33,634 bases of DNA, taken from positions 1 to 33,634 of the forward strand of contig JAHDEL010000040.1 in the NCBI GenBank assembly GCA_020628855.1. The letters run 5' to 3'. Under the pieces are notes generated by a model, which ran no database searches, was not told the DNA's origin, and saw nothing but the letters and a program-made list of their open reading frames with translations. Of this stretch, positions 18,536 through 27,640 are shown in pieces (position 1 is the first letter of the stretch; each line of letters starts with the position of its first letter). Position numbers and translations under genes: made by a program. The stretch comes from Saprospiraceae bacterium (GTDB lineage Bacteria; Bacteroidota; Bacteroidia; Chitinophagales; Saprospiraceae).

Positions 18536-21500
18536 ATGAAAATGATGCAAAGCAAGTTCTCAACCTTAATTTTATGCTTCATCTGTCTAACTTTATTATT
18601 ATCCTACTCCAGCAATCCACCGAATGGTAAAACTGGAGCTCCAGGCGAAGGTGCTTGTAACGAATGTCACAATGGATCCAGTTCGTTGGACGGCAATATT
18701 AGTATTACTGGTTTGCCATCAACATTAACTCCAAATACAACATACAATCTTACTGTTACACTCGACAATCCCAATGGTAATGCAGTCAGAGGTGGTTTTC
18801 AATGGGTTGCTCTTGATTCAGGATTTAGCAACGCTGGAAGTATGTCAAATGCATCTCCAATGTCCGCAATCATGTCTTCAGGCGGAAGAATGTATCATGA
18901 ACACAATGGTAGTAACTTTTTCTCAGGTCCTCTCAGTTGGAATGTAGATTGGACTGCACCAAGCGGACCAGTTGGTGAGAATATTACTTTATACAGCAGA
19001 GCAGTTGTTGGCAATGGCTCTGGGAGCTCTGGAGATGAAGTTGTGTCATCAACAGTATCTGCAACAATTGGAAGTGGTACAGGCCCTATGACCGTTGCAA
19101 TACTTGACTATGACGACCCATTATGTCTTGGAGAAAACACTGGAGTTGCAACAGCTCAAGTATCAGGAGGAAGTATGCCTTATACCTATCTGTGGTCCAA
19201 TGGCAATACTATGAATCCTGCGAATGATTTGAGCTCTGGTCTGAATACAGTTACTGTTACAGATAGTGGTGGTCAAACATCAAGTGCTTCTGTCAGTCTA
19301 GTAGATCCAAGTCAAGTAGAAGTAGAACTTGTTCTCATACAAAATCAAATTTGTCCAGGAAGTAACAATGGGTTTATAGAAGTACACGGACTAGGAGGAA
19401 CAGGAGGTTATACCTACCAATGGTCAAGTGGACAAACAACAAATTGGATTGCAGGGCTAGTAGCTGGGACTTATAGCGTGACGGTATTTGATCAAAATAG
19501 TTGTTCTGCAAGTGATAGTTATTCGATTCAAGAAAGCGGACTAAATGTCACCATTCAAGGTGCATCAATTTTTTGTTCAGGGACAACAATAGAACTCAGT
19601 GCTCCATCTGGTTTTACAACATATTCATGGTCAACTGGAGATATCACCCCTCAAACAACAGTCAGCCAAGGTGGAGATGTCAGCCTTGTTGTAACAGATG
19701 TAAGTGGATGTACTGGATCTTCATTAGTTACATTAACAGAATTAGCTTCTCCAGAACCAGTCATTCAAGGGCCAACGGAGATTTGTCCAGGCATACCTAA
19801 TACTCTTATAATACCTGGAACATACACGAGTTATCTGTGGAATAATGGTGATGTTGGTCAATCTTTGGTCATCGATGACTGCGGAACTTACTTTGCTACA
19901 GTCACTGACTCCAATGGATGTACAGGCGATACATTTACTACGGTAGTTTGTGCTCAACCTTTCAGCGTTGAATTGGTATCTCTTTCTCCGACGACGTGCT
20001 ATGACGCAAATGATGGAGCTCTTGAAGCTGGAGCAAGTATTGGGACTTCTAATGTTTCTACATTGTGGTCAACTGGAGAAACTAGTCCATTCATTGATAA
20101 CCTTTCTGAAGGTGAGTATTCAGTCACAATGACTGATAATACTGGATGTAGTGTTATTGATACTTTCATAATTCCAGCATTTGACACCTTGGTGGTCTTG
20201 GTAGACAGTCTTGAGTTACCAGTTTGTCATGATGATACTACTTCCTTGATCATGGTAAGTGGTCAAGGTGGAGCAGGATTGTACTCATTCTTCTGGCCTG
20301 ATGGTATCCTTGGTGATTCAATTACAGAATTTGGGTCTGGCAATTATCAGGTGACCATAGTCGATTCAAATCAATGTATCGATTCAAACGTGGTGGCCAT
20401 ACCAAGTATAGACTCGTTGCAAATCGTTATTGATAGCATAGATCATGTAGATTGCTTTGGGGAAAGTTCTGGTTATGTTCAGATATCTGGATCCGGAGGT
20501 CATGGTGGTTATGAATACTTTTGGGCTGACAACACTCTAGGACAAGAAAGAACGATGTTAATGGCTGGTGATTATGAGGTGTTTGTAAGAGATTCTTTGG
20601 GCTGTGGTGTGATTGATACGATTAGAATAAATCAAAATTCCGAAATCCAAATCACAGCCAATGTAATCAACGAATCTCAAAGTGGTAGTAATGATGGTAG
20701 TATCTCATTAAATATAACAGGTGGTCAGGCTCCTTATACTGTGCTTTGGCCAGATGGCAGTACAGGGTTAACCTTAGACAATCTTAGTCCTGGTAATTAT
20801 TTTGTAAATGTTCAAGACGGGCTTGATTGTATCAGAGATACGTCCTATACTATTCTAAGTGGAGCTTGTAATTTATTTGCGACTGCTTCAATAGAAAATA
20901 ACAGTTGTCCAGAAGGTAATTCAGGTAGTATTCTTGTATCAGTAATGGGCGGAATCGAACCTTACACTTATACTTATTCTGAAAATATTGCGCCTGAAAA
21001 CATTCAAAATAGCACTTCAATCATCAATCTTCCAGCAGGTAGTTTCTCCATTTCAATAACAGATCAGGCTGATTGTATTTTCGTTTTATCAGTAGATATA
21101 GACGAACCCGAGTCTTATGGGTTAGAACTAGCGTCTAATGATGTATTGTGCAAAGGAGATTCGACTGGTAGTTTTAGTATACTTGTTGACAGCCTGAATG
21201 CAAATTTCCCAGGCATTGAATCAATTGATTTTGAAACCTATGATGGTAACAATTTAGTGGGATTACCAGCAGGAAGTTATATGTTGACTATTACAGATAG
21301 TAATGGTTGTCAGCTAGCCTACCAAGGAACAATTGGAGAACCAGAAGCAGAGTTATTAGCATCTAATATCATCACAACAGCTGCAAGCTGTGATGGAGTA
21401 GAAGATGGCAATATCGAAGTGCAAGTGAATGGAGGGACTGCTCCTTATTCGTATCTATGGTCTACAGGAGAAGAAGATATAAACCAAATATTTGTTGGGG

Positions 21501-22756
21501 CCGGCAATTATTCCGTCACAATTACTGACTCAAATGGTTGTGCACTAATTGAAGATATCAGTATTGAGGCAAACGATACAATACCCCCAACACTTGAGTT
21601 AATGTCTCAAACAATCTATTTAGATGAAAATGGAAACGCTGAATTACCTCCTTTGGAGTCTTTCATCAATATGAATTTGGACCAATGCGGAATTGATACG
21701 GTGTATATGCAAGATATACAAGCACTAGATTGTAGTTCTGGTGAAGTTTGGATATATGTAAACTCCACTGATTTATCAGGAAATACATCGCTTGATTCTA
21801 CTACATTGGTAGTGTTAGATACTTTACCTCCTTCTATTACTTGCCCAAGCGTATTATCTTTTGGAGAGTGTGAGATTGTAGAATACACTATTTCCTCAAC
21901 AGACAATTGTGACATAGTATCTTCCGAACTTATCAATGGGTTCGAGACGGGAAGTCAATTTCCAACTGGAGTGACTGAAGTAATCTATCAGTTTACTGAT
22001 GCAAGTAACAATGCAGTCGAATGTGCATTTTTAATAGAAGTAATACCAAGTATCGAACTCGATCCCATTGCTGATATCACAGTTTGCTTTGGTGAGTCTT
22101 CAATTGTTTTCTTACCTGAAATAGAAGGATTAGATATAGAAATTTTGGGAGCTGAAGCTGATGAACCACTCGAACCAGGTGAATACATAATGTTAGCAAC
22201 TGATACATTTGGTTGTATGTCTGTGGATACATTTCAAATTCTTGAAAACACAGAAGTACTATTGGAACTTATCTCAGCCGAAAATGAATCTTTCGAAAAT
22301 GCTAACAATGGAATGATAGCGGTAGAAACAACTGGGGGTAGCCAACCTTATAGCTATGAATGGACATTAGACGGAGAACCATTTAATCAAACAAGCAATC
22401 TCGCATTAGATTTGGCTCCAGGTGAATATAGCATTCAGTCAATAGATAACAATGGTTGTTTGAGCAACCTACTTACTGTAACAATTGAACCAGGTGTATC
22501 TTCCAATATTAATGAAACGTCTCAATCCAAAATAGATCTCTACCCTAACCCAACATCTGATAAGCTATTTTTGAAGAAATCTGCTGATATCAAGATTATT
22601 AGTACACGTATTGTAGATACTAAAGGCAATACAATGTTGTACGAAAATGAATTTCTTCAAGAATATGACTTAACTACACTTACGAGTGGGCTGTATATCC
22701 TCATTATTGAGAGTGATAGAGGAATACTTTATAAGAAGATTTTGAAATCTGAATAG
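18536..22756 (+). CDS. Large T9SS-secreted surface protein with SprB-type repeats
   Basis: The 1406-residue protein has a signal peptide (about 1-24), a choice-of-anchor V/Reeler-like domain (about 30-180) beginning KTGAPGEGACNECHNG with a CxxCH motif (Cys41, Cys44, His45), then around a dozen 65-80 residue beta units. Most are SprB-like (GGTAPYSYLWSTGEE with GNYSVTITDSNGC is the model unit); two Ig/PKD-like units lack the GG-PY core. HYR-like modules follow (SITCPSVLSFGECEIVEYT; VIYQFTDASNNAVECAF), then a last SprB unit and a type A T9SS sorting domain (about 1332-1406; LYPNPTSDKLFL, SGLYILII). It is expected to cross the outer membrane by T9SS and act at the surface in gliding, adhesion or matrix binding. 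M1, M3 and M4 are alternative starts. Confidence 0.9.
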   Translation: MKMMQSKFSTLILCFICLTLLLSYSSNPPNGKTGAPGEGACNECHNGSSSLDGNISITGLPSTLTPNTTYNLTVTLDNPNGNAVRGGFQWVALDSGFSNAGSMSNASPMSAIMSSGGRMYHEHNGSNFFSGPLSWNVDWTAPSGPVGENITLYSRAVVGNGSGSSGDEVVSSTVSATIGSGTGPMTVAILDYDDPLCLGENTGVATAQVSGGSMPYTYLWSNGNTMNPANDLSSGLNTVTVTDSGGQTSSASVSLVDPSQVEVELVLIQNQICPGSNNGFIEVHGLGGTGGYTYQWSSGQTTNWIAGLVAGTYSVTVFDQNSCSASDSYSIQESGLNVTIQGASIFCSGTTIELSAPSGFTTYSWSTGDITPQTTVSQGGDVSLVVTDVSGCTGSSLVTLTELASPEPVIQGPTEICPGIPNTLIIPGTYTSYLWNNGDVGQSLVIDDCGTYFATVTDSNGCTGDTFTTVVCAQPFSVELVSLSPTTCYDANDGALEAGASIGTSNVSTLWSTGETSPFIDNLSEGEYSVTMTDNTGCSVIDTFIIPAFDTLVVLVDSLELPVCHDDTTSLIMVSGQGGAGLYSFFWPDGILGDSITEFGSGNYQVTIVDSNQCIDSNVVAIPSIDSLQIVIDSIDHVDCFGESSGYVQISGSGGHGGYEYFWADNTLGQERTMLMAGDYEVFVRDSLGCGVIDTIRINQNSEIQITANVINESQSGSNDGSISLNITGGQAPYTVLWPDGSTGLTLDNLSPGNYFVNVQDGLDCIRDTSYTILSGACNLFATASIENNSCPEGNSGSILVSVMGGIEPYTYTYSENIAPENIQNSTSIINLPAGSFSISITDQADCIFVLSVDIDEPESYGLELASNDVLCKGDSTGSFSILVDSLNANFPGIESIDFETYDGNNLVGLPAGSYMLTITDSNGCQLAYQGTIGEPEAELLASNIITTAASCDGVEDGNIEVQVNGGTAPYSYLWSTGEEDINQIFVGAGNYSVTITDSNGCALIEDISIEANDTIPPTLELMSQTIYLDENGNAELPPLESFINMNLDQCGIDTVYMQDIQALDCSSGEVWIYVNSTDLSGNTSLDSTTLVVLDTLPPSITCPSVLSFGECEIVEYTISSTDNCDIVSSELINGFETGSQFPTGVTEVIYQFTDASNNAVECAFLIEVIPSIELDPIADITVCFGESSIVFLPEIEGLDIEILGAEADEPLEPGEYIMLATDTFGCMSVDTFQILENTEVLLELISAENESFENANNGMIAVETTGGSQPYSYEWTLDGEPFNQTSNLALDLAPGEYSIQSIDNNGCLSNLLTVTIEPGVSSNINETSQSKIDLYPNPTSDKLFLKKSADIKIISTRIVDTKGNTMLYENEFLQEYDLTTLTSGLYILIIESDRGILYKKILKSE

Positions 22757-22772
22757 AAAAAAGAGATAGTAT

Positions 22773-22849
22773 AAAAAAAAGTAGCCCGTGATTGGGGATC
22801 ACGGGCATTACTCAATTTAATAACCAAAACTCATATTCACATTGAGTAA
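22773..22849 (-). ncRNA. Putative small RNA, unit A
   Basis: On the minus strand the unit starts with TTACTCAAT (22849-22841), then a loop exposing AGTTTTGGTTATTAA, then ATTGAGTAA (22816-22808) closing a perfect 9-bp stem. Next is GCCCGTGAT-CCCCA-ATCACGGGC (22806-22784), a 9-bp perfect hairpin, then TAC and T8 (22780-22773), a complete intrinsic terminator. Immediately upstream is TAGTGTTTG (22860-22852), a near -7 element with one extra spacer base. The predicted RNA is about 76 nt. The 19-nt core is identical to unit B. It has no coding potential and is not just an adhesin terminator, since the U-run is on the minus strand. Confidence 0.55.
22813..22831 (+). repeat. 19-nt direct repeat, copy 1
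   Basis: CAATTTAATAACCAAAACT, identical to 23044-23062. It lies 6 nt from hairpin A and partly in the loop of the upstream stem. Confidence 0.95.
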
Positions 22850-23000
22850 AGCAAACACTATGCCAAAACATGAATATATAGTTCTATATGTCTATGTAAA
22901 TGCTATCTAAAAGGTATAATTATAAGCTTTTATCTTCAACTGAATACTACCTAAACAAGTATCAATCTTCAGATTGCTTTCAAGGAAATGAGGTAGGGGC

Positions 23001-23067
23001 AAAAAAAATGCTCGTGACATCTCACGAGCAAAAACGAATTTTACAATTTAATAACCAAAACTTACAC
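23001..23067 (-). ncRNA. Putative small RNA, unit B
   Basis: On the minus strand a perfect TATATTTG promoter element (23079-23072) is followed after nine bases by AGTTTTGGTTATTAAATTG (23062-23044), a short AT-rich spacer, the hairpin TGCTCGTGA-GATG-TCACGAGCA (23030-23009), and T8 (23008-23001). This predicts an RNA of about 67 nt. Compared with unit A the hairpin keeps its shape while one C-G pair becomes a U-A pair, a compensatory change. The alternative is a distant terminator for mqnD, whose stop is about 170 nt upstream, but that would not explain the promoter element or the conserved 19-nt core. Confidence 0.6.
23044..23062 (+). repeat. 19-nt direct repeat, copy 2
   Basis: CAATTTAATAACCAAAACT, identical to 22813-22831. 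It lies 13 nt from hairpin B on the side opposite the A8 tract. Confidence 0.95.
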
Positions 23068-23071
23068 AGTT

Positions 23072-23079
23072 CAAATATA
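23072..23079 (-). promoter_or_regulatory. -7 promoter element of sRNA unit B
   Basis: Minus-strand TATATTTG, the same octamer as the purH, dehydrogenase and tRNA-Arg promoters. There is no gene start downstream on the minus strand before the hairpin and U8 at 23001, so the transcript would be short. Confidence 0.5.
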
Positions 23080-23198
23080 TAACATATTATATTAATTTGT
23101 AATGTGTATTAAAATGTTTTTTAGCTATTTACAAATATTTATTTTATTTAATATATTAGGTGTTGATTTACAACATCATTATCTGCGCTCTAGTATGA

Positions 23199-24029
23199 CT
23201 ACTTTTCTATAAACAGCCAATGTTCTGTATCAACGGGCTTATATTTCGAAGGAATTACTGTTCCTATCATATAATTGATAGCTTCAATATCAATGGCTTG
23301 TAAACCTCGGGTACTAGCATTAACATAGAGATCTATATGCTTCTGCATTACACTTTCGTCCATTTCTTGAGCATGCTCCTTGATATATTTTAGTATAGGT
23401 CCAATATCATCATCTGCAAGCAAGACACTCTTTTTCAAATCAGAACAAGCTTTTTGTTTAACCATCTTTGGCAAGCTTCTTTTTATGGCAATACAACCTA
23501 AAGGAATGGGTAATCCAGTTTTTGACTCCCAATATTGACCTAGGTCTTCTACTAGATGCAGTCCTCTCATAGCGTAGGTAAACCTATTCTCATGAATAAT
23601 CACACCAGCATCTACCCTATTACTTAGAACAGCATTCTCGATATCTGAAAAAAGCATTGGAACAGCTTCGTAGTCCTGTAAGTCAAGATTCTTCAAGAGC
23701 AAGTGGGCCGTGGTGTGTTCTCCAGGAATAGCAATTCTTCTCAAGTCAGATAATTGTGTTGGCTTGGCTGAGATAAGCAAAGGACCTACCCCATAACCAA
23801 GCGCACTCCCATAAGGCAATACCTGGTAATGATTGATTACCTTACAATAAGCATGATAGCTCATTTTGACTAGATCATAACTCATCTTCATAGCATGATG
23901 ATTGAGTTCTTCGACATCCATTAGCTCTATGGAGTAAGTGAGATCTGTAGGTACATTCCCTAATGCAAGGTTTCCAAAGATGTAGGTATCATTTGGGCAA
24001 GGAGAATAGGCAAGTTTGAGTTTTTCCAC
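23199..24029 (-). CDS. mqnD: 1,4-dihydroxy-6-naphthoate synthase
   Basis: MqnD converts cyclic dehypoxanthinyl futalosine to 1,4-dihydroxy-6-naphthoate in the futalosine route to menaquinone. It has a periplasmic-binding-protein-like fold and acts in the cytoplasm. Motifs are LAYSPCPNDTYIFG near the N-terminus, a central GEHTTAHLLL, VIIHENRFTYAMRGL with the conserved catalytic His, and GLPIPLGCIAIKR. No ATG exists near the N-terminus: GTG 24029 gives EKLKLAYSPCPND and about 276 residues, as in the family, while TTG 24038 adds three. Other mqn genes are not in the window. It diverges from the pseudouridine synthase gene across about 65 nt. Confidence 0.92.
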   Translation of the reverse strand: MEKLKLAYSPCPNDTYIFGNLALGNVPTDLTYSIELMDVEELNHHAMKMSYDLVKMSYHAYCKVINHYQVLPYGSALGYGVGPLLISAKPTQLSDLRRIAIPGEHTTAHLLLKNLDLQDYEAVPMLFSDIENAVLSNRVDAGVIIHENRFTYAMRGLHLVEDLGQYWESKTGLPIPLGCIAIKRSLPKMVKQKACSDLKKSVLLADDDIGPILKYIKEHAQEMDESVMQKHIDLYVNASTRGLQAIDIEAINYMIGTVIPSKYKPVDTEHWLFIEK

Positions 24030-24094
24030 AATAGACAAACCTTAATTCGGTAATTATTGTTTCGCAAACAGAAGAATGCTTAGATTCGTACGCC

Positions 24095-27566: not shown

Positions 27567-27640
27567 TGACTTCGGAAGGATTCGAACCCTCAACCTTCTG
27601 ATCCGTAGTCAGATGCTCTATCCAGTTGAGCTACGAAGCC
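27567..27640 (-). tRNA. tRNA-Arg(ACG)
   Basis: The minus strand folds into a cloverleaf: acceptor GGCTTCG/CGAAGTC (one G-U pair), D arm GCTC/GAGC, anticodon arm TCTGA-CTACGGA-TCAGA with anticodon ACG, and T arm GAGGG-TTCGAAT-CCTTC. The discriminator is A; CCA is not encoded and T7 follows. Position 34 is A, so TadA deamination to inosine is expected to allow reading of CGU, CGC and CGA. It is the first gene of the tRNA-rpmB-rpmG-DUF4295 unit. Confidence 0.97.

Follow-up and report, generated by a model that had tools for sequence, protein, structure and literature searches.

Two small units placed in tandem in the genome of a member of Saprospiraceae, which we call A and B, are probably sibling trans-acting small RNAs (sRNAs): with one common seed and two different inputs, they would repress the translation of surface proteins. 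They lie in a stretch of 33,634 nucleotides, which we call the window. The evidence, all of it at the level of sequence, consists of a family of similar units with conserved terminators, promoters and seed, and of conserved complementary leaders in their putative target genes. The positions of all features are given in Table 1.

Table 1. Features of the two units and of their neighbourhood in the window
Feature	Position	Strand	Sequence or motif	Remark
Class-A sRNA, predicted, about 67 nt	22773..22839	-		5' seed region, spacer and terminator
Core, unit A	22831-22813	-	AGTTTTGGTTATTAAATTG	putative seed
Terminator hairpin A	22806-22784	-	GCCCGTGA..TCACGGGC	followed by TAC and T8 (22780-22773)
Sigma-54 (-24/-12) promoter of unit A, putative	22851..22866	-	TTGGCATAGTGTTTGC	TGGCAY-N5-TTG
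Class-B sRNA, predicted, about 65-67 nt	23001..23067	-		5' end deduced
Core, unit B	23062-23044	-	AGTTTTGGTTATTAAATTG	putative seed
Terminator hairpin B	23029-23010	-	GCTCGTGA..TCACGAGC	followed by T8 (23008-23001)
Bacteroidota-type -7 element of unit B, putative	23072..23079	-	TATATTTG	TAnnTTTG-like in sigma-A-type B units
26-bp palindrome	23082..23107	-	ACATATTA-N10-TAATATGT type	putative operator of unit B
Giant surface protein gene	18536-22756	+		choice-of-anchor V domain and type IX sorting domain
Menaquinone biosynthesis protein, MqnD-like	23199..24038	-	PF02621	upstream neighbour
tRNA-Arg (acg)	27567-27640	-

Both units are found between convergent genes, as a preliminary description of this DNA had noted and as the reading of both flanking genes confirms. 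That description was also right on the identical core followed by a hairpin and T8 in each unit, and on the compensatory exchange of C-G for T-A in one stem pair. Its proposal of two tandem sRNA genes on the minus strand with intrinsic terminators is supported; the 5' end, the promoter and the additional stem which it gave to unit A are not. The units are intergenic and each has a predicted promoter of its own and an intrinsic terminator, as is expected for trans-encoded sRNAs. Covariance models of the RNA alone, with promoters excluded, match unit A at 22772-22839 with 85.9 bits (model R1, class A) and unit B at 22998-23065 with 95.6 bits (model R2, class B), each unit being itself part of the alignment of its model. 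The MqnD-like gene is a conserved neighbour and no part of the sRNA system. A homologue is found near 7 of 15 class-A loci, some of which are cut by contig ends; a pseudouridine-synthase gene (PF00849) is near nine of them and alanine dehydrogenase is close in six. These conserved neighbours indicate common descent of the locus, not function.

In the genome of the window (3.43 Mb in 74 contigs) the core is present twice in exact form and once with two mismatches, the latter being the antisense of a gene start; the reversed control gives no match. Among 99 other genomes searched, 12 have the exact core, several of them in tandem. All 12 are Saprospiraceae, and none of the 39 genomes of other families in this set has it. 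The preliminary description had considered that a genome search might yield nothing else than AT-rich similarity devoid of hairpins; we have found the opposite. The alignments comprise 15 sequences of class A and 11 of class B. In class A the first 17 bases of the core are invariant in the 15 loci, and in both classes the core is near-invariant and unpaired in the consensus structure. The core had been put forward as a candidate target-pairing seed, and it does behave as one, although it is not strictly 19 nt long: in the wider family the stretch that is almost always conserved is approximately AGTTTTGGTTA.

Both terminator hairpins covary in these alignments. The hairpin of class A has 96.4% of its cells paired with 14 two-sided changes, that of class B 98.9% with 16 such changes. 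The covariation score is attained by none of 500 shuffles in either class; for the number of pairs showing a two-sided change, 7 of 500 shuffles in class A and 97 of 500 in class B do as well. When RNA B is folded alone, a weak 7-bp hairpin covers part of the core in the minimum-energy form and is absent in the centroid. The 9-bp stem which had been described at the 5' end of unit A, with the core in its loop, does exist in the DNA, and an RNA of 77 nt would fold in this way. The stem is not conserved: of 46 class-A units, two have it when one mismatch at most is allowed, the unit of the window included. We reject it for this reason and because the start predicted from the sigma-54 promoter falls downstream of its 5' arm.

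The promoter of unit A had been read as a near-match, TAGTGTTTG, to the TAnnTTTG type. This near-match belongs instead to a putative sigma-54 promoter. The motif TGGCAY-N5-TTG, which we take to be the -24/-12 form of such promoters, is present at most 50 nt upstream in 40 of 42 class-A units and in 25 of the 27 class-A units outside the model, over a background of 0.0037 per 50 nt in which the units themselves are included. The genome of the window encodes RpoN (rpoN), so that class A has both the element and the sigma factor expected of a sigma-54-dependent sRNA. In the window there is a single site for 0.74 expected by shuffling, which by itself proves nothing. If the C of TTGC is placed at -12, RNA A would start at about 22839 and have about 67 nt, instead of the start at 22849 and the 76 nt proposed before. 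For the upstream site of an enhancer-binding activator, a logo of the 100 nt upstream displays, by eye, no strongly conserved block. Sigma-54 promoters have been described in another member of Bacteroidota, Flavobacterium psychrophilum (PMC9723704).

Unit B has a different promoter. The octamer TATATTTG is present nine bases ahead of its core, as had been reported, and a palindrome lies upstream of it. Of 44 B units compared with mismatches allowed, 35 have the palindrome with a 10-nt spacer and eight with one of 9 or 11 nt; in one unit none was found. We have compared the promoters of 98 distinct B-like units, taken from 80 of the 112 stretches found in a pattern scan of GTDB species genomes. 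The sigma-54 box is present in 66 of them, with 0.03 expected by mononucleotide shuffling; 27 have TAnnTTTG together with the palindrome and one has TAnnTTTG alone. The others are three near-misses of the sigma-54 box, judged by eye, and one unit with neither promoter. Among the 66 sigma-54 units, three also fit TAnnTTTG and ten the loose palindrome, in DNA which is rich in AT. The two promoter types thus appear almost mutually exclusive across the 98 units, a split which defines a third class, a B-like RNA with a sigma-54 promoter. The sequence GTAAGATTCG is present in 58 of the 66 sigma-54 units and GTAAAATTCG in all 28 units with TAnnTTTG. Twenty further units are consistent with this division, 12 of sigma-54 type and 8 of B type by eye. 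The sigma-54 B-like class is often multicopy: among the matches listed there are six in genome G143 and four each in G222 and G247. Arrays of near-identical sigma-54 B-like sRNA genes are found in L116 (3190-3826), L117 and L118, one locus in each case. We infer that most likely the sigma-54 B-like form is the older one and that B swapped its promoter.

Covariance-model searches within Saprospiraceae and over the class, of the kind which the preliminary description had suggested, do detect a family, with its matches in Saprospiraceae. Model R1 matches 93 of 298 Saprospiraceae genomes in 38 of 112 genera, and R2 matches 142 of the 298 in 60 genera. The two models partly cross-match: the cross-matches of B fall in the range weaker than E 1e-6, and the count of R1 is 70 of 298 when this range is left out. 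Among 295 genomes spread over the class, R2 matches three, all of them Saprospiraceae, and none outside this family. The 80 stretches listed of the 112 in the pattern scan are titled Saprospiraceae, Saprospirales, Chitinophagales or Bacteroidetes/Bacteroidota; the named carriers among them are Portibacter lacus and P. marinus. In the searches made so far the family is found in Saprospiraceae only. A phage origin is unsupported: a scan of viral contigs with one exact B-type pattern yields no stretch. In each of the 31 loci which have both units, B precedes A on the same strand, at a distance of 46-267 nt in 30 of them and of 8.9 kb in the other one; B is missing from 11 more A loci, whose length is limited. 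Both classes are present in Saprospirales bacterium GYS_P2D (L186), a record which bears no metagenome-assembly label.

Some loci depart from this arrangement. In L082 a class-A RNA (1501-1568) is found right behind an apparent end of a B promoter and has no sigma-54 box; it is possibly a chimera of B and A produced by deletion. In two Portibacter loci, L128 (1921-1986) and L129 (2141-2205), the class-A core has decayed and the adjoining B copies are intact. A genome of the same genus as that of the window, G001, has a second class-A sRNA apart from the tandem pair (L479, position 3261, plus strand, in contig C80), with its own sigma-54 box and terminator.

No described family was known to the author of the preliminary description, and we have found none that matches in Rfam or in the literature searched. 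Rfam 15 gives no sRNA at the gathering threshold in the window, where it detects a tRNA elsewhere; the best match below threshold is sroB, with 26.2 bits versus the 44 required. In eight loci of relatives it detects just an SRP RNA elsewhere. In the open-access literature searched we found no paper on regulatory RNAs of Saprospiraceae, no mention of the core sequence and no paper on a sigma54-dependent small RNA connected with an adhesin or T9SS in Bacteroidota.

The best predicted target in the genome of the window is found in contig C74. It is a gene for a giant protein of 1423 amino acids with a type IX sorting signal, which has a perfect complement of 17 nt placed 7 nt before its AUG. The predicted duplex energies are -26.6 kcal/mol for A and -20.3 kcal/mol for B, and no start region in the backgrounds of 110 and of 389 gives a duplex as strong. 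For A the nearest of them, at -21.9, comes from the giant gene next to the sRNAs in G001. Contig C29 contains a gene for a small secreted protein (129 amino acids) followed by a giant one of at least 1726 amino acids. The small gene has a match of 10 nt; background regions are as good in 2/110 and 6/389 cases for A, and in 26/110 and 81/389 for B. The second cistron is unremarkable, with 17/110 (A) and 84/110 (B) background regions as good. The start region of the giant gene of the window itself has no seed complement. Unlike that of the copy in the window, the start region of its homologue in G001, likewise adjacent to the sRNAs, is predicted to pair strongly with A.

We have also selected genes by their proteins, that is by similarity to the N-terminal domain of the 1423-amino-acid protein. 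There were 43 matches, of which the 30 with loci were used and 16 start regions were readable; ten ORFs ran off the locus, three could not be located and one began too far in. For G127 we used the second in-frame ATG. Where the genome has class A, 5 of 10 start regions contain the complement (4 of 9 without the query); in other genomes none of 6 does. Those five genes together with one in G035 make six related giant genes which can be aligned; G002 was left out as near-identical to the genome of the window (G000). The rows are anchored on AACCAAAACT, so that identity is 1.00 over the ten anchored bases by construction. Pairwise identity is 0.79 over the 7 nt beside the anchor, and it is 0.31 further upstream and 0.46 downstream.

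The search for complementary mRNA leaders which had been proposed has given a divided answer. Genome-wide totals of seed complements near ATG have no excess over the reversed control, and there is no overall enrichment. What does stand out are particular recurrent leaders, which were found by searching for the complement itself. In them the complement stops 5-8 nt short of the AUG in genes for giant type IX-secreted proteins and for small secreted proteins, both in the genome of the window and in others. The leader AACCAAAACTCAATCTC-ATGA with up to three mismatches has 76 matches in 39 of 46 class-A genomes (control 13), and the exact form has 17 matches in 16 of these genomes. Among 58 genomes without strong class A there are 29 matches in 25 genomes (control 17), none of them exact and two with one mismatch. 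With one mismatch at most, the leader is present in 22 of 46 class-A genomes (14 genera) versus 2 of 58, the set of 46 including two Portibacter genomes (G122 and G211) which have decayed or weak class-A copies only. The two genomes with the leader despite the lack of strong class A are G037, which has a B unit, and G015, which neither model matched. The co-occurrence of leader and class A is not independent, since both share a clade. In 41 genomes lacking strong class A we detected no leader which recurs. The genomes without strong class A are not a uniform group, since a B-type unit is present in G037 and G016 at least. The complement also resembles A-rich start regions in general, and unrelated matches occur near ATG too.

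We have read 23 leader sites with up to three mismatches. At 22 of them an ORF opens with a start which, by eye, is like a signal peptide; the other one, L400, has no gene start. Thirteen of these ORFs are small (121-163 amino acids) and nine are long: eight have at least 1381 amino acids and one is ended at 136 amino acids by the end of its contig. Both long targets tested (L050 and L386) have a type IX sorting domain at their end. The three small targets tested belong to no Pfam or NCBIfam family, and six small targets compared have 9-24% identity to the first. They form a divergent group of small secreted proteins of about 120-160 amino acids (L384 5199-5588, L308, L388, L312, L325, L311), and several of their genes lie directly upstream of giant secreted proteins. 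In three operons read (L310, L311, L384) the second cistron begins 19-31 nt past the first stop and has a leader of its own, which speaks against this leader being part of a promoter. In Portibacter, two genes for giant secreted proteins have AACCAAAACTTATCTC, which fits B rather than A. Core matches with one or two mismatches are found in L037, L040, L048, L050 and L051 and might have been another RNA; for the last four this is ruled out, as they are the antisense of start regions. Complementarity between the seed and start regions is thus present in related genes of several genomes, as judged from their sequences.

Other readings of the two units have to be weighed against these data. Both units end between convergent genes, where plain terminators or AT-rich repeats with no sRNA function might be found, but it is very improbable that they are nothing else: promoter, 5' seed and terminator are conserved jointly, across genera and in differing neighbourhoods. 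Hardly any credit can be given to a short translated ORF (ATG AGT TTT GGT TAT TAA, for MSFGY) or a coding remnant. In unit A of the window this frame is open, but it is not conserved and we have rejected it: in class B the frame lacks an ATG, in several A units the ATG is replaced by TTG, and changes of one base in the length of the core, together with differing bases downstream, break the frame. 

The RNAs might instead be mainly decoys which bind an RNA-binding protein or a further sRNA, or titrate it, with the 5' stretch as a protein site. In B and in the sigma-54 B-like class about 33 nt of the 5' part are conserved, more than a seed needs, and RbpB is described to bind the 5' portion of the FopS RNAs of Bacteroides (PMC11697453). 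Such a role is nevertheless improbable, since the complement is kept in the target leaders while their flanks diverge, and the duplex in the window's own genome ranks first. A somewhat less remote reading, which we still consider unlikely, keeps the sibling sRNAs and changes their effect: pairing would activate or stabilise the mRNAs of surface proteins, or the main targets would lie elsewhere and the match to surface-protein genes would be secondary. Since the leaders are AT-rich, binding of the sRNA could be protective instead of blocking, and at least in the genomes without strong class A, where no recurrent leader was found, other targets must exist. Against this reading, the complement stops 5-8 nt short of the AUG, where a duplex is expected to block the ribosome, and in Bacteroides repression by the FopS RNAs acts close to the start codon (PMC11697453). 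We therefore prefer sibling sRNAs which repress through the common seed.

Among known systems the FopS/GibS RNAs of Bacteroides are also from Bacteroidota, of about 65-70 nt, multicopy, with a conserved 5' seed, and pair near the start codon of surface-protein mRNAs; FopS RNAs block initiation at susC mRNA (PMC11697453). As described there, FopS has sigma-ABfr promoters and susC-like targets, whereas the Saprospiraceae family has one class with sigma-54 and giant type IX proteins as putative targets. That promoter type is not what we find here: class A and the sigma-54 B-like class have the sigma-54 box and B has TAnnTTTG. R2 has no match outside Saprospiraceae among the 295 genomes of the class-wide search, and the comparison with FopS/GibS is by description. 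The tandem siblings OmrA/OmrB of E. coli have a near-identical 5' end, and their targets include outer-membrane proteins and the control of curli; both are under EnvZ/OmpR, whereas A and B differ in predicted polymerase specificity (PMC4211561). LhrC of Listeria is also multicopy and impedes translation of a surface adhesin, but it is Gram-positive, with a CU-rich motif, and controlled by LisRK (PMC4132741). Rfp36 of F. psychrophilum is also a putative sRNA behind a Bacteroidota sigma-54 promoter; it comes from a different bacterial family and its likeness to class A is by description alone (PMC9723704). The Qrr RNAs of Vibrio are multiple siblings as well, with an invariant core of 32 nt; they are activated by the response regulator LuxO, and their targets include quorum-sensing regulators, unlike the surface proteins considered here (PMC4211561).

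According to the reading which we prefer, A and B would be RNAs of about 65-67 nt with a single-stranded 5' seed and an intrinsic terminator at their end. Unit A would be transcribed by sigma-54 RNA polymerase, as its 5' end deduced from the -12 position supposes, and an enhancer-binding activator would then be needed. Unit B would be transcribed by the housekeeping polymerase from the TATATTTG promoter; its palindrome occupies the upstream half of this promoter, which suggests that a second regulator acts there. Pairing in the cell would take place through AGUUUUGGUUA(UUAA) with the complement found 5-8 nt upstream of the start codon. The duplex would block the entry of the ribosome and lower the production of giant type IX-secreted proteins and of their small secreted partners. 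Two different signals may thus converge on a single set of targets. The known Qrr sRNAs, which depend on sigma-54, share one type of promoter. The nature of the signals is a guess by analogy. The sigma-54 regulon of F. psychrophilum includes genes for envelope stress, chaperones, gliding with a SprB adhesin operon, and exported proteins (PMC9723704), and from this class A might respond to the state of the envelope or surface and B to the regulator of the palindrome. For the history of the family, the chances seem about even that an ancestral sigma-54-driven sRNA, often multicopy, was duplicated and that one copy replaced its sigma-54 promoter by a housekeeping one with a new operator while it kept the seed; the tandem pair would then silence giants and small partners, whose leaders retained the complement, upon two unrelated signals, as a surface RNA hub common to the whole family.

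To our knowledge, little is known of how Bacteroidota limit the production of giant type IX-secreted surface proteins. The family described here offers a handle on the regulatory RNAs of Saprospiraceae and on the control of these proteins. It also provides a clear example from nature of sibling sRNAs with one seed which appear split between two polymerase specificities. Since the seed is kept and the polymerase differs, promoter exchange in the evolution of sRNAs may be studied on many examples, at least 98 units.
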